From positions 379,600 through 443,599 of the forward strand of contig JAGXKG010000001.1 of NCBI GenBank assembly GCA_018335335.1: a stretch of DNA of 64,000 bases, in the 5' to 3' direction. Source of the DNA: Candidatus Thorarchaeota archaeon (GTDB lineage: Archaea > Asgardarchaeota > Thorarchaeia > Thorarchaeales > Thorarchaeaceae). Made by a program: the position numbers and the translations under genes. A model generated the notes under the pieces. The model made no database searches, was not told the DNA's origin, and was given only the letters and a program-made list of their open reading frames with translations. Positions 46,376 through 51,126 of this stretch are shown one piece after another. Every line of letters begins with the position of its first letter. Position 1 is the stretch's first letter.

Positions 46376-47404
46376 ATGTCAAAATTTGAGATGCTTGAGG
46401 AGAGTCTCCTTGGAAACCTAGGTGAAAGAATCCCGTATTCTCTCTGGCAACATCACCCTCGCATAGATCGAACCCCGGAGGGCCTAGCCAAGGCCGAAAT
46501 CGAGTTCATGAAGAAGTATGATGTCACTTGTGGGAAAATAAGCTTCCACGGAAGATATCCTGTTGTTGACTGGGGGTGCGAAGCGGTTTATGATGGTGCT
46601 ACCTCCGGATCAACTACCTGCAAGAGCTGCGCAGTTGAAAAGGCCAGTGATTGGGAAGAGCTGGAGCCTGTTGATGTGAATGCGGGTGAGTTTGGCAAAC
46701 AGGTCCAGGCCATAGAACTGATTCAGGACTATGCTGAAGGCCGGGTTCCTATCATGGCTACGATATTCGATGCGCCTATGGTCGCTTCGAAGCTATGTGA
46801 TGGTCAATTTGTTGATTTCATAGAAAAGCGACCAGAATTGATGCACAGCGTTCTGGACATGCTAACGGATGTGATGATTGATTTTGCTAGGGCCACTTTA
46901 CAGGCTGGATCCCATGGTCTTTTCATTGCTTCACAACACTCTACAACAGCGGCAGTAACAGATAGGCAATATGCTAATTTTGTTTTTCCGTATGAAAAGA
47001 AGCTGATTTCGAAGTTACGCGGAAGAGCCAAATTCATTGTGTTACATCTTCATGCCCGGGAAGAAGGGGAGACAATCCGATTTGAGAAAGTATCTCGTTT
47101 AAGAGGTGTTAGTGCAATCAACTGGGAAGATCAAAGTGCATTTCCCTCCCTTGCCAAAGGCAAGAAGGTATCACGAAAAGCGGTCTTTGGTGGAATCGAC
47201 CATAACAACACACTACGAAAAGGCACTCCCGATGAAATAGAGGAACAGGTTCTGGAAGCAGCACAAGCTGCAGGTTTGCGGAAACTCATTTTGGCTCCTG
47301 GCTGTGTCATACCGATTGACACGCCACCAGAGAATCTTAAGGCAGTAGTTGATACTGTGAAGGCTATCAATCCATGGTCACAGGAATGGGAGGAGTATGC
47401 GTGA
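46376..47404 (+). CDS. Uroporphyrinogen decarboxylase (URO-D) family protein
   Basis: A 342-aa TIM barrel of the URO-D superfamily, which also includes cobamide methyltransferases (MtaA, MtbA). IPYSLWQHHPRID at the start, PIMATIFDAPMVASKL, LHLHAREEG and the C-terminal KLILAPGCVIPIDTPPENL match the superfamily. The PGC-x-(6-8)-P segment with cysteine resembles a zinc site as in MtaA-type methyltransferases, so a corrinoid methyl transfer role is at least as likely as heme synthesis. The ATG at 46376 is chosen; an upstream frame is not natural. It overlaps PolX by four bases (GTGA). Confidence 0.82.
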   Translation: MSKFEMLEESLLGNLGERIPYSLWQHHPRIDRTPEGLAKAEIEFMKKYDVTCGKISFHGRYPVVDWGCEAVYDGATSGSTTCKSCAVEKASDWEELEPVDVNAGEFGKQVQAIELIQDYAEGRVPIMATIFDAPMVASKLCDGQFVDFIEKRPELMHSVLDMLTDVMIDFARATLQAGSHGLFIASQHSTTAAVTDRQYANFVFPYEKKLISKLRGRAKFIVLHLHAREEGETIRFEKVSRLRGVSAINWEDQSAFPSLAKGKKVSRKAVFGGIDHNNTLRKGTPDEIEEQVLEAAQAAGLRKLILAPGCVIPIDTPPENLKAVVDTVKAINPWSQEWEEYA

Positions 47405-49113
47405 GCAAGAACCAAGAAGTCGCAGAGATGCTCAAGGAAATTGGATTACTACTTGAGGTTAAAGGGGCTAACAAATGGAAGACAAGAGCTTACAAACGTG
47501 CGACCAGAGCGATTACTTCTCATGGTGAGGATGTTCAAGCTGTCGATGCTAGACGGGAACTTACCGAAATACCTGGTATCGGAGATGCAATTGCAGAAAA
47601 GATAAGCAGCTACCTGGATTCTGGCGTTGTCCCTGAACTTGAGAAACTGCGAGCTGAGATACCCGTCGCTGTCATGCAGTTGGAGGCTATACCTGGAGTT
47701 GGTCCAAAAACCATAAAGCTGGTATACGACGAGCTCGGTGTGAATGATTTGGATTCTATGGAGGAGGCAGCAAGAACGGGTAGAATAGCAGAATTGAAGG
47801 GGATGGGGAAGAAGACGGAACAACAGATTCTCGATGGTATAGCATTGGTCCGCTCAGGTTTGGGACGGACTCTGCTTGCTGATGCTCTCCCGTATGCAGA
47901 ACAACTAATTGACTATTTGAACAGGTTGCCTGAGCTTGCGAAAATAGCTTTGGCTGGATCAATCAGGCGCAAAAGAGAAACTGTACATGATGTAGACATT
48001 TTGGTTTCGGCTGATGACGCTGAAATGGTCATGGATGCCTTTGTTGAATTCGAGTATGTAGAAGAGATCATTGCTCACGGAACCACGAAATCATCAGTAC
48101 GCCTCGATAATGCTCTTCAGATCGATCTGCGAATAATCCCTGCAGAAAGCTTCGGTGCAGGTCTTCAGTACTTTACCGGGAGCGTGGATCATAACGTTCG
48201 GCTGCGGTCCATAGCACGGTCTAAGAACATGCTGCTGAATGAATACGGTCTCTTTCAGGGCGAGGCGAAAGTGACCGGTGATGACGAACGTGCCGTTTAT
48301 GGAGAACTCGGTTTGCCCTACATTCCCCCCGAACTCAGAGAGGATAAGGGTGAGATAGAGGCCGCCCAAGAAAGTCGTCTACCCAATTTGATAACGCTTG
48401 AAAATATGCGGGGCGATCTTCACTCGCATACTGACCAGTCCGACGGTTCAAATACAATCCATGAAATGCTGGAGGCTGCTGACGAGATTGGCTATGATTA
48501 CTACTGTGTTTCTGACCACACACAAAGCCTTGCCATAGCCAACGGCATGGATGAAGAGCGCCTTCTCAAGCGGATTGACGAAGTTGACGAAATCAATGAT
48601 TCAGGTCGATATGGATTGACTGTACTGAAAGGAGCAGAAGTTGACATTCTGGAAGGGGGTCTCTTAGATATCAGGGATGACGTCCTAGAACAGCTTGATG
48701 TCGTTACGGTTTCTATTCATAGCAGAATGAAAGATGACAAGGAGACTATGACTCAACGAGTCTGTAACGCGCTAGAGAACAAGCATGTACACATGCTTGG
48801 TCATCCCACCGGGAGGCTTCTTTTGAAACGAACTAGCTATGAGATTGATCTCGATGCAGTCTTGGAAGTGGCCCGACAGAACAATGTCGCAATGGAACTA
48901 AACGCTCTCCCAAGGCGTCTAGATTTGAATCCCGGGAATCTTCGCGCGGCAAAACGGATAGGAGTAAAGATTGCCATTAATACGGACGCTCATAAAATCG
49001 CTCATCTCAATAACATGAAATACGGTGTATTTCAGGCCCGTCGGGGCTGGATTGAAACCGATGATGTTCTTAATACATTCACACTGGAAAAGCTTCGTCG
49101 AACATTGAAGTAG
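47401..49113 (+). CDS. polX: DNA polymerase/3'-5' exonuclease PolX
   Basis: PolX (570 aa) acts in base-excision repair. An N-terminal helix-hairpin-helix region (ELTEIPGIGDAIAEKI; EAIPGVGPKTIKL) precedes the nucleotidyltransferase domain with acidic pair HDVDILV and QIDLRI, and a PHP domain with metal motif GDLHSHTDQSDG and catalytic residues down to NTDAHK. The start is GTG at 47401, seven bases after GGAGG, and overlaps the upstream stop. Full-length for the family. Confidence 0.95.
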   Translation: MSKNQEVAEMLKEIGLLLEVKGANKWKTRAYKRATRAITSHGEDVQAVDARRELTEIPGIGDAIAEKISSYLDSGVVPELEKLRAEIPVAVMQLEAIPGVGPKTIKLVYDELGVNDLDSMEEAARTGRIAELKGMGKKTEQQILDGIALVRSGLGRTLLADALPYAEQLIDYLNRLPELAKIALAGSIRRKRETVHDVDILVSADDAEMVMDAFVEFEYVEEIIAHGTTKSSVRLDNALQIDLRIIPAESFGAGLQYFTGSVDHNVRLRSIARSKNMLLNEYGLFQGEAKVTGDDERAVYGELGLPYIPPELREDKGEIEAAQESRLPNLITLENMRGDLHSHTDQSDGSNTIHEMLEAADEIGYDYYCVSDHTQSLAIANGMDEERLLKRIDEVDEINDSGRYGLTVLKGAEVDILEGGLLDIRDDVLEQLDVVTVSIHSRMKDDKETMTQRVCNALENKHVHMLGHPTGRLLLKRTSYEIDLDAVLEVARQNNVAMELNALPRRLDLNPGNLRAAKRIGVKIAINTDAHKIAHLNNMKYGVFQARRGWIETDDVLNTFTLEKLRRTLK

Positions 49114-49127
49114 ATTCTCTACGTTTT

Positions 49128-49158
49128 GTAGTCACAAATTGTGACTACCGATTGTGAC
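49128..49158. promoter_or_regulatory. Operator-like palindrome with an extra half-site
   Basis: GTAGTCACAA (49128-49137) and TTGTGACTAC (49139-49148) are a perfect 10-bp inverted repeat around one base. A third copy of the half-site, ATTGTGAC (49151-49158), lies 13 bases after the previous one in the same direction. It sits 20 bases upstream of a TATA-like element. Perfect symmetry and the repeated half-site point to a repressor or activator binding site. Confidence 0.6.
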
Positions 49159-49177
49159 CCCATATAGTGGCTTTCTA

Positions 49178-49185
49178 TTATATAC
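49178..49185 (+). promoter_or_regulatory. TATA box for the micro-ORF unit
   Basis: TTATATAC in an AT-rich stretch (CTATTATATACTAAAT), at the expected distance of about 30-40 bases upstream of the first ATG. Expected transcript start is near 49205-49210. Confidence 0.5.
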
Positions 49186-49216
49186 TAAATCTGGTTGGTA
49201 TGTCATGTGAAACACG

Positions 49217-49324
49217 ATGAACACGATGTCAAACACACACCGCTCAGAGAAGAAGAACATTACAACACTAGCATACCAGTCTACTGAAGCACTCGGTTAC
49301 GCCTACGCAACAATCAGGAGATGA
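49217..49324 (+). CDS. Micro-ORF 1 (35 aa), unknown
   Basis: A 35-codon ORF, MNTMSNTHRSEKKNI and on to EALGYAYATIRR, opening shortly after the expected transcript start. Its end (AGGAGATGA) serves as ribosome-binding site for micro-ORF 2. A second in-frame ATG lies at 49226. I do not recognise the peptide; it is polar and basic at both ends with an aromatic stretch. Three short ORFs in a row, each with a ribosome-binding signal or coupled end, make a translated unit plausible but unproven. Confidence 0.45.
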   Translation: MNTMSNTHRSEKKNITTLAYQSTEALGYAYATIRR

Positions 49325-49328
49325 TCAC

Positions 49329-49418
49329 ATGAACCAGAAGAACACAACAAAGAGAACCAACGGGCCAAAGAAAGCCATATCGACCGACGCAATCGCAAAC
49401 CGCTACTTCACGAGGTAG
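49329..49418 (+). CDS. Micro-ORF 2 (29 aa), unknown
   Basis: A 29-codon ORF with ATG at 49329 placed eight bases after GGAG (AGGAGATGATCAC-ATG). It encodes a strongly basic peptide, MNQKNTTKRTNGPKKAISTD, ending NRYFTR. It overlaps neither neighbour; the stop lies in GAGGTAG, which serves as the ribosome-binding site of ORF 3. Unknown function; basic composition suggests nucleic acid binding. Confidence 0.45.
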   Translation: MNQKNTTKRTNGPKKAISTDAIANRYFTR

Positions 49419-49425
49419 AATAGCG

Positions 49426-49530
49426 ATGAGCGAGAAGGTTGCTAGCTCAAATCGTACTAGGTCGGAACAAACCCCAGATAGGGAAAACAGACTAACTGTC
49501 GAAGAAGTACTCGCATTAGAACCAACGTGA
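49426..49530 (+). CDS. Micro-ORF 3 (34 aa), unknown
   Basis: A 34-codon ORF, MSEKVASSNRTRSEQTPDRE then NRLTVEEVLALEPT, with GAGG ten bases upstream of the ATG. It is followed by a T-rich run (49533-49560) consistent with transcript ending. I do not recognise it. The acidic C-terminus differs from micro-ORF 2. Together with ORFs 1 and 2 it fills the interval between PolX and the convergent acetyltransferase gene. Confidence 0.45.
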   Translation: MSEKVASSNRTRSEQTPDRENRLTVEEVLALEPT

Positions 49531-49560
49531 GTCCTTCTCTTTTCTTTTATCTTATTGTTT
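49531..49560 (+). terminator. T-rich end of the micro-ORF unit
   Basis: CCTTCTCTTTTCTTTTATCTT directly after the third micro-ORF; a long pyrimidine/T-run of the sort at which archaeal RNA polymerase stops. It overlaps the end of the convergent gene by a base or two. No hairpin. Confidence 0.45.
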
Positions 49561-50422
49561 ATCCAGTATCGTGCATGACACGTTTCTTTGCCAGAAACTC
49601 AGAGTCCTTTCGAGCAAATCCTTCAGCATAGAGGTAGTCAAGGATTTCCTGATGCATATCTTGAATCCAGAATACAACCCTGTCAGTTTGTACTTCACAC
49701 ATGGCGCTTTTTATCACATCTCTACCATAACCCTCTTTGTAGCTGAATGATACCGTTGTACTATCATCATTCGCTTGATTGGGTATGAGTTGCATGAAAC
49801 CAACCACCATATTGCTTTCTGGCTCAGTCAGAGCATAACAGCGCCCTCCACGAATGGTATACTCCCATGTCTTTCGATTCCTATATCCCCAATAGGTGTC
49901 TGGCTCTAGGTGGATGAACAGTGGAATGTGTTCCAACCGTGCTATGCCCACCTCGATATCGAATTCTACTGCAGTAGTATCAGCAGGTCCTTCCAGCTGG
50001 AGGATGAGAGATTGTATGCCATACCCTAACCCCTCTACAAATGAGATAGCTTTTCTTCGGTGTGTCTTAGGGGCAATCGCAAAGTGAGTAATAGCTGGAT
50101 TAAGCTCCAGAAACGTTCTCTCCGATTCCTTAACAATCTGGCTCCCGACACCTTTGTTTCGCATCTCGGGGTCTACAGCAAGCTCCCATATCGCTCCCCA
50201 GCCAAGGCTTCGCAACATGAGATTAATTGCAACCCCCACAATCTCGTCATCTACAACCGCCACCTTCCACAACTTCTCAAGATCGCCGCTAATCTTGCAG
50301 CGGTCCCACGATCGCGAAAAACCTTCGAAGCTCATTTCAAAATCAGGAAAACCTGTTTCATATACACTGTAGGCCGCAGCTTTCTCTCCGCTTCTTGGTG
50401 GACGAATTGTGACTTCGGACAT
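49559..50422 (-). CDS. GNAT-family acetyltransferase, two-domain
   Basis: A 287-aa protein with an N-terminal GNAT domain (about 1-140) containing the acetyl-CoA loop RNKGVGSQIV after IWELAVDPEM, and a second, weaker GNAT-like half (VGIARLEHIPLFIHLEP through GFMQLIPNQ). The substrate is unknown. ATG at 50422 is chosen over one three codons upstream. It is convergent with the micro-ORF unit. Confidence 0.8.
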   Translation of the reverse strand: MSEVTIRPPRSGEKAAAYSVYETGFPDFEMSFEGFSRSWDRCKISGDLEKLWKVAVVDDEIVGVAINLMLRSLGWGAIWELAVDPEMRNKGVGSQIVKESERTFLELNPAITHFAIAPKTHRRKAISFVEGLGYGIQSLILQLEGPADTTAVEFDIEVGIARLEHIPLFIHLEPDTYWGYRNRKTWEYTIRGGRCYALTEPESNMVVGFMQLIPNQANDDSTTVSFSYKEGYGRDVIKSAMCEVQTDRVVFWIQDMHQEILDYLYAEGFARKDSEFLAKKRVMHDTG

Positions 50423-50628
50423 CAATGGCACCTGTTTTCATCATCTGTCTTGCGTCTAAAGGCTGTGGGTGAAGGTGATTTCAGACAGTAATTATCAGAG
50501 ATATTCCTCCAAAATAAGCCTGATTCTTTGGCAACCAGTTAAGCAAAAAAAGCCCGGAATACAACACTAGCTGGCAAATGCAAAACAACAGATGGGACAC
50601 AATAGAAGAGCAGAAGAAAGCAAGAAAA

Positions 50629-50826: not shown

Positions 50827-51126
50827 TCACTCTACTGAGACGTCTAAGAGTAAGGGTCTAATTTCTTCGTAGAAATCCATCAGAGCTTTGCTTTTTGGGT
50901 CCTCACTTTGTAGGATGAACAGCCTGATTTGCTTGCCAACTTTTATCTCTTTCACAAGGCCCATATCAACAAGTGGTTGAATGACACGATGGATAGTAGA
51001 ATGAGCCAGATCCGTTTCCTTTGCTATTCTGCTCAGGTTGAAGAATTCTTTGGGTCTATCTAGAAAATGCTGAACAACTCTCGTTTGTGCTCGAGATGCG
51101 AATAATTTCTCAAGTAGTTCTCGCAA
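50827..51126 (-). CDS. Winged-helix transcriptional regulator
   Basis: A 99-aa protein with a winged helix-turn-helix (ARQTR-type start, LSRIAKETDLAHSTIHRVIQPL, then wing GKQIRLFIL), similar to small archaeal ArsR/MarR-like regulators. It is on the same strand and 18 bases downstream of the UMP kinase gene; co-transcription is likely. Target unknown. Confidence 0.8.
   Translation of the reverse strand: MRELLEKLFASRAQTRVVQHFLDRPKEFFNLSRIAKETDLAHSTIHRVIQPLVDMGLVKEIKVGKQIRLFILQSEDPKSKALMDFYEEIRPLLLDVSVE

Follow-up and report, generated by a model that had tools for sequence, protein, structure and literature searches.

A compact unit between polX and a convergent acetyltransferase gene

Does the short interval between polX and a convergent GNAT acetyltransferase gene in a Thorarchaeia (Asgard) genome, with its three tandem ORFs, hold real small-protein genes, and if so, what kind of unit do these genes form? 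Asgard archaea are the group from which eukaryotes are thought to descend. The window referred to throughout is the whole 64,000-nt stretch of this genome that was analyzed. An initial annotation, made from the letters alone, had seen at 49114-49560 the part order of a regulated transcription unit; the ORF list and the matched PolX domains bore out the two flanking genes, and the contents of the interval stood, while its start was slightly off, the unit extending over ~49128-49560. Operator, TATA box, coupled ORFs and hairpin-plus-T terminator were all located, as follows.

47374-49113, polX (PolX domains matched), adjoining the unit upstream
49128-49137/49139-49148, perfect 10-bp inverted repeat (inverted-repeat search)
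49130-49146, + strand, palindromic core AGTCACA-AAT-TGTGACT, comprising half-sites 1 (AGTCACA, inverted, starting at 49130) and 2 (TGTGACT, starting at 49140)
49153-49159, + strand, half-site 3, TGTGACC, 13 nt after half-site 2
49166-49172, + strand, half-site 4, AGTGGCT, 13 nt after half-site 3 and adjoining the BRE/TATA region
49178-49185, + strand, TATA box TTATATAC, at positions 47-53 from the operator start in 107 aligned copies
49217-49324, + strand, T1, 35 aa, MNTMSNTHRSEKKNITTLAYQSTEALGYAYATIRR
49316-49324, + strand, AGGAGATGA, closing codons of T1 with its stop, providing the Shine-Dalgarno for T2
49329-49418, + strand, T2, 29 aa, MNQKNTTKRTNGPKKAISTDAIANRYFTR
49412-49418, + strand, GAGGTAG, final stretch of T2 with its stop, providing the Shine-Dalgarno for T3
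49426-49530, + strand, T3, 34 aa, MSEKVASSNRTRSEQTPDRENRLTVEEVLALEPT, with a variable N-part and a fixed C-terminus EVLALE-x-T
49504-49537, + strand, hairpin GAAG...CTTC, coding for the EVLALEPT end and stop of T3; the stop codon falls within the 3' arm
49536-49560, + strand, T-rich terminator tract; T-rich tracts follow the hairpin in other loci too
49559-50431, GNAT acetyltransferase gene, the next gene after the unit and convergent to it

With modest confidence, we judge that 49128-49560 is probably a regulated transcription unit, complete in its parts, that encodes three real small proteins and belongs with several sister units to a Thorarchaeia-specific regulon. Its best-founded part, the prediction that T1, T2 and T3 are coding and co-regulated, is well supported by comparison of their sequences across the class. 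The three ORFs have the 35, 29 and 34 codons first described, and the suggestion that ribosome-binding signals at one ORF's end serve the next agrees with AGGAGATGA at the end of T1 and GAGGTAG at the end of T2. These Shine-Dalgarno-like stretches lie 4-7 nt ahead of the next ATG, and T1 endings of the form (G)AGGTRA are conserved across copies, such that predicted translational coupling of T1, T2 and T3 through their Shine-Dalgarno-bearing stop regions is strongly supported. T2 (which includes the segment AISTDAIANR) is paralogous to T1 by the C-terminal motif ST-x-A-[IL]..[YF]..R, and both peptides are conserved toward the stop, variable in their N-parts and always basic (charge +3 to +9). 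An AlphaFold model of T1 gave one helix at pLDDT 66 and was not informative.

Three reading frames are conserved and under frame-specific selection

Conservation of reading frames and start sites in close relatives had been named at the outset as decisive for this locus, and we found the frames of T1, T2 and T3 and their start sites kept across genera, with length differences of whole codons only. Purifying selection, also put forward as a check, was seen in all three ORFs and in the true frame only. We compared observed amino-acid changes between disjoint pairs of copies with the same substitutions placed at random, and this codon permutation gave in-frame values of z = -12.1 (T1), -10.2 (T2) and -5.6 (T3; -3.8 for its part outside the hairpin). 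Copies within a genome appear to evolve in concert (two congeners), so that pairs are not fully independent and their number exaggerates the independent evidence. Effect sizes are large despite this non-independence. Shifted frames of the same sequences ranged between -1.4 and +3.0 and held many stops, whereas the true frames held none. A simple pN/pS ratio was 0.73 for T1 and 0.66 for T2 versus 0.95-1.11 in control frames; it did not separate the frames of T3, for which the permutation test with shifted-frame controls was used instead.

Members of a T1/T2 profile, which window T1 matches at E=4.6e-9, were found in 46 of 47 class genomes at E<=0.01 (43 at 1e-4), at up to 14 per genome, and in 0 of 181 other Asgard genomes. 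Stops were read through in this search, and among the ~150 profile matches listed there was one internal stop. It is an in-frame TAG in a peptide-family member at G025:C97:12137-12238, the only stop among the matches listed and possibly the mark of a pseudogene or a sequencing error.

T3 presents a more intricate case. The T-rich run, named last among the parts by the initial annotation, does close the unit, and it belongs to a hairpin terminator in which the final codons of T3 are encoded as well. The class form is a 12-bp hairpin, GTGCTCGCGTTG-GAAG-CAACGTGAGCAC, followed by T residues and encoding the fixed C-terminus EVLALEAT. Among 33 loci found via the hairpin DNA alone, all 33 carry a T3 ORF in frame with the hairpin, variable in length and with its start codon just after T2. 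Silent positions in the hairpin vary compensatorily (G-C/A-T/G-T at one pair, C-G/T-A/T-G at another), and in nine cases a Leu codon changes from T to C against the pairing; both the T3 peptide (which in the window includes LTVEEVLALEPT) and the hairpin thus appear to be under selection. Conservation of the T3 C-terminus as a purely peptide signal was considered and rejected, because the hairpin accounts for part of it. T3, mostly acidic (mean charge -2.4, some copies basic up to +4), is the weakest of the three coding cases. Its gene nonetheless offers a clear natural case in which a peptide C-terminus, its stop codon and a terminator hairpin apparently share one sequence.

A four-site operator in fixed phase with the TATA box

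The inverted repeat and extra half-site first described are both present (the latter TGTGACC at 49153-49159), with the count short by one, a fourth half-site lying at 49166-49172; the TATA box, likewise proposed at first reading, was located as TTATATAC at 49178-49185. Aligning 107 copies, we obtained GTGGCTtcGctaTATATAC as the class consensus of half-site 4 and found that direct half-sites of the 41-bp operator keep a strict 13-nt step. The T1 ATG stands exactly 85 nt past the operator T at 49132, the same spacing as in most copies. Across this alignment, information per column is 0.07 bits upstream, ~1.4 at the operator edge and 1.1-1.4 from the edge to the ATG, with nucleotide conservation extending into the 5' leader. 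Of 47 Thorarchaeia genomes, 42 carry the strict operator pattern, against 0 of 181 other Asgard genomes, and a reversed-control pattern gave 0 matches in the 228 genomes; the operator array is far beyond chance. A public genome collection contained 102 stretches matching the operator, and among the matches listed (80 of 102) every source is a Candidatus Thorarchaeota genome or RBin_111. The latter is labelled Candidatus Lokiarchaeota, yet it groups with Thorarchaeota genomes here and carries the operator and peptides, and its label looks wrong.

A position beside BRE/TATA is typical of archaeal activators, and because the operator array adjoins BRE/TATA, we propose that a putative transcription factor, bound just upstream of these elements and probably an activator, would turn the units on. 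Archaeal winged-helix regulators of the TrmB, MarR and ArsR types use palindromic operators. The Thorarchaeia array resembles theirs in placing an inverted repeat close to the core promoter and differs in having four half-sites at a fixed 13-nt step and in fixed phase with the TATA box; a TrmB-family stress regulator offers a point of comparison (PMC9426492). Within the window, a 99-aa winged-helix (IclR/TrmB-like) gene lies at 50827-51126 on the - strand, and we regard it as a candidate regulator because several other Thorarchaeia genomes also have a related wHTH gene close to their unit at the polX site. Further candidates are a TFIIB-zinc-ribbon/wHTH protein located next to the MFS_3-type site and the protein adjacent to it.

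Sister units occupy shared chromosomal positions and differ in their last member

In the window's own genome, a copy on contig C3 is 92% identical to 49131-49423 and encodes T1, T2, an extra T2-like ORF and T3, and operator-only matches lie on C6 and C66, with C6 encoding a related peptide with the motif ST-x-A-[IL]. In the single congener available for comparison, the corresponding loci are present and every frame is intact. Its assembly (G001; L006/L007 and L008/L009) breaks at an identical stretch common to its two copies, a sign of their near-identity.

A DNA search across the class found the promoter module in 26 of 47 genomes, often several times each. The units sit at approximately six chromosomal positions common across genera, including directly after polX (14 modules), between superoxide-reductase-like and GNAT genes (13) and before each exporter. 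Because these positions are shared across genera, we interpret the units as ancient loci passed on vertically and not as a mobile element.

What follows the module varies. In a set of 83 modules whose downstream sequence covers 1.5 kb or more, T3 and the terminator followed in 32, an MFS exporter in 34, both in 0 and neither in 17. One exporter family is an MFS_1/MFS_3 protein whose closest matches, TIGR00900 and the exporters Mef and EntS, do not reach the curated NCBIfam cut-offs; the other is a more distant MFS_1 family. In operons of the MFS_3 type, ~5 nt separate the end of T2 from the exporter start; in the other family, the start lies hundreds of nt after T2, with an internal operator of its own. 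Many exporter operons (L222, L032, L067, L077, L121 and others) contain a second internal array with GGTCACA/TGTGACCA half-sites, which looks like a second regulated promoter ahead of later micro-ORFs and the exporter. This array was seen as TGGTCA(CA) half-sites at ~11-nt steps, with TGTGACCA and then a TTGTGAA..ATG context, ~240-320 nt past the operator. Recurrent neighbors of the units are exporters and polX, SOR-like, GNAT and HCDH genes, with no recognised RiPP enzyme among them.

Alternative readings of the unit

Leader peptides of the ErmCL type and those associated with Mef precede antibiotic-resistance or exporter genes, and the alternative that survives best would make T1 and T2 such cis-acting leaders, tuning the downstream exporter by translation coupling or nascent-chain arrest, with solo T1-T2-T3 as the same leader and its terminator hairpin opened by the ribosome on T3. 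A variable N-part followed by a C-terminus conserved up to the stop is typical of arrest peptides, and the Shine-Dalgarno inside the stop region, the T2 stop ~5 nt before the MFS_3-type exporter start and the T3 stop codon inside the terminator hairpin all agree with this alternative, but 32 of 83 modules have no exporter and are closed by T3 and terminator, and the second exporter family starts hundreds of nt after T2 behind its own internal operator. In the window, the next gene is convergent, so nothing downstream is controllable and leader action fails there; an ORF directly upstream of a same-strand controlled gene is found in the exporter operons only. The comparison with known leaders (erm leader peptides, PMC5118997) divides in the same manner, in that short ORFs stand directly before a Mef/EntS-like exporter in one operon set with peptide ends conserved at the stop, whereas the Thorarchaeia ORFs are archaeal and can also stand alone, as units of three ORFs that close with a terminator and have no gene to control. 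Leader action is a good fit to the MFS_3-type exporter operons and not to the solo units, and we hold it to be rather unlikely as an account of the unit.

The initial annotation had also raised a toxin/antitoxin-like unit, in which basic T1 and T2 would be harmful and the acidic T3 or the exporter would relieve the harm. Small adjacent ORFs behind an upstream operator, with T1/T2 opposite in charge to T3, do recall toxin-antitoxin modules, and T3 and exporter never stand together behind the same module. This reading is nevertheless improbable, given that the peptides matched no known toxin or antitoxin family or structure (Pfam, NCBIfam, PDB), that some T3 copies are themselves basic, and that stable positions and class-wide presence fit housekeeping regulation better than addiction; a unit of three genes at class-wide fixed positions, with the third replaceable by an exporter, also departs from such modules.

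Slightly more improbable still is a unit whose RNA is the main agent, as a short transcript that stress induces and a terminator hairpin ends, with the ORFs incidental. The compensatory changes in the 3' hairpin and the nucleotide conservation of the 5' leader would suit such a transcript, while the strong frame-specific, protein-level selection in all three ORFs with zero in-frame stops, the one internal stop among ~150 profile matches listed and the lack of an Rfam family speak against it. Finally, a mobile element, viral remnant or single frameshifted gene is very improbable: copies scattered through a genome, nearly identical and sharply bounded, had first suggested a mobile unit, but synteny at the same chromosomal positions across genera ruled this out, no transposase-sized ORF lies in the unit and no inverted repeat pairs its two ends, a viral contig collection gave no operator match, and three frames are each kept across genera with their own start, stop and Shine-Dalgarno.

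A small-protein family absent from the libraries searched

Returning to the reading of three real small proteins, the micropeptide interpretation offered at the start is the one borne out by conserved frames, frame-specific selection, a class-wide operator-promoter and the lack of a match to known families. The early impression that the peptides resemble nothing known was sustained, with no Pfam, NCBIfam or PDB relative of T1, T2 or T3 found and with Rfam, PDB sequence and Pfam searches at chance level only (best stray match, a weak one to the uS11 N-terminus, E=0.34). A search of a literature library found no paper describing a Thorarchaeia micropeptide operon. Judged against the libraries searched, the peptide family and regulon look new, while conserved operons of small proteins controlled by a stress operator are already known as a kind. 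Small proteins detected by Ribo-seq in Methanosarcina mazei (PMC11456600) and those of the GMSC catalogue (PMC11364881) are likewise overlooked, <50 aa and clade-conserved; unlike these, the Thorarchaeia peptides are without a family match, multi-locus and under one shared operator, with a tandem basic/basic/acidic order and a third C-terminus dual-coded with a terminator hairpin. For Thorarchaeia, the outcome is a defined operator with its regulon, together with a family of small proteins absent from the libraries searched.

The wider regulon and a proposed function

The operator extends beyond the peptide units. A three-site form of the array, in the same phase to its TATA box, precedes a bactofilin gene (PF04519), whose product is a polymer-forming protein of the cytoskeleton or envelope. 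Among 30 genomes examined, an operator match lay upstream of this gene in 17, and in 16 of these the distance to the gene was 95-128 nt. A class-wide scan with the three-site form turned up 33 matches against none for the control. Most belong to the bactofilin gene; the remainder include GNAT proteins, a nitroreductase and a multi-TM protein whose homologue stands behind the C6 peptide (BLASTP 8e-38). Because the operator precedes MFS exporters and bactofilin, GNAT, nitroreductase and multi-TM genes, this gene content suggests a regulon that responds to toxic compounds or envelope stress.

To draw these observations into a mechanism, we propose that toxic-compound or envelope stress would trigger the units and that basic T1 and T2, together with the mostly acidic T3 where present, may serve as small trans-acting effector or regulatory proteins, with the C-terminal segment ST-x-A-[IL]-x-x-A-[YF] as the putative acting part, rather than as mere leaders. 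Action in trans, a less certain step, is favored because the peptides are the only unit products at many loci. The full picture that we tentatively put forward, as possible though less probable than the unit's identity itself, is a class-wide Asgard stress system, not described before, in which a dedicated regulator would turn on several copies of tandem basic micropeptides acting in trans, and in which exporter genes and the acidic third peptide could replace each other at the end of the unit. Directly testable questions now concern the regulator of the TGTGAC array, the stress that it senses and the role of the 30-residue peptides alone versus before exporters.

Two gene families recur behind the operator in these loci. 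A bactofilin-like gene with the three-site operator was seen in L004/L223 (G000:C66:6226-6264) and L224-L252, and a multi-TM family without a Pfam match stands behind the operator in different genera (L281:1632-2708, L260 and L003:434-1318).
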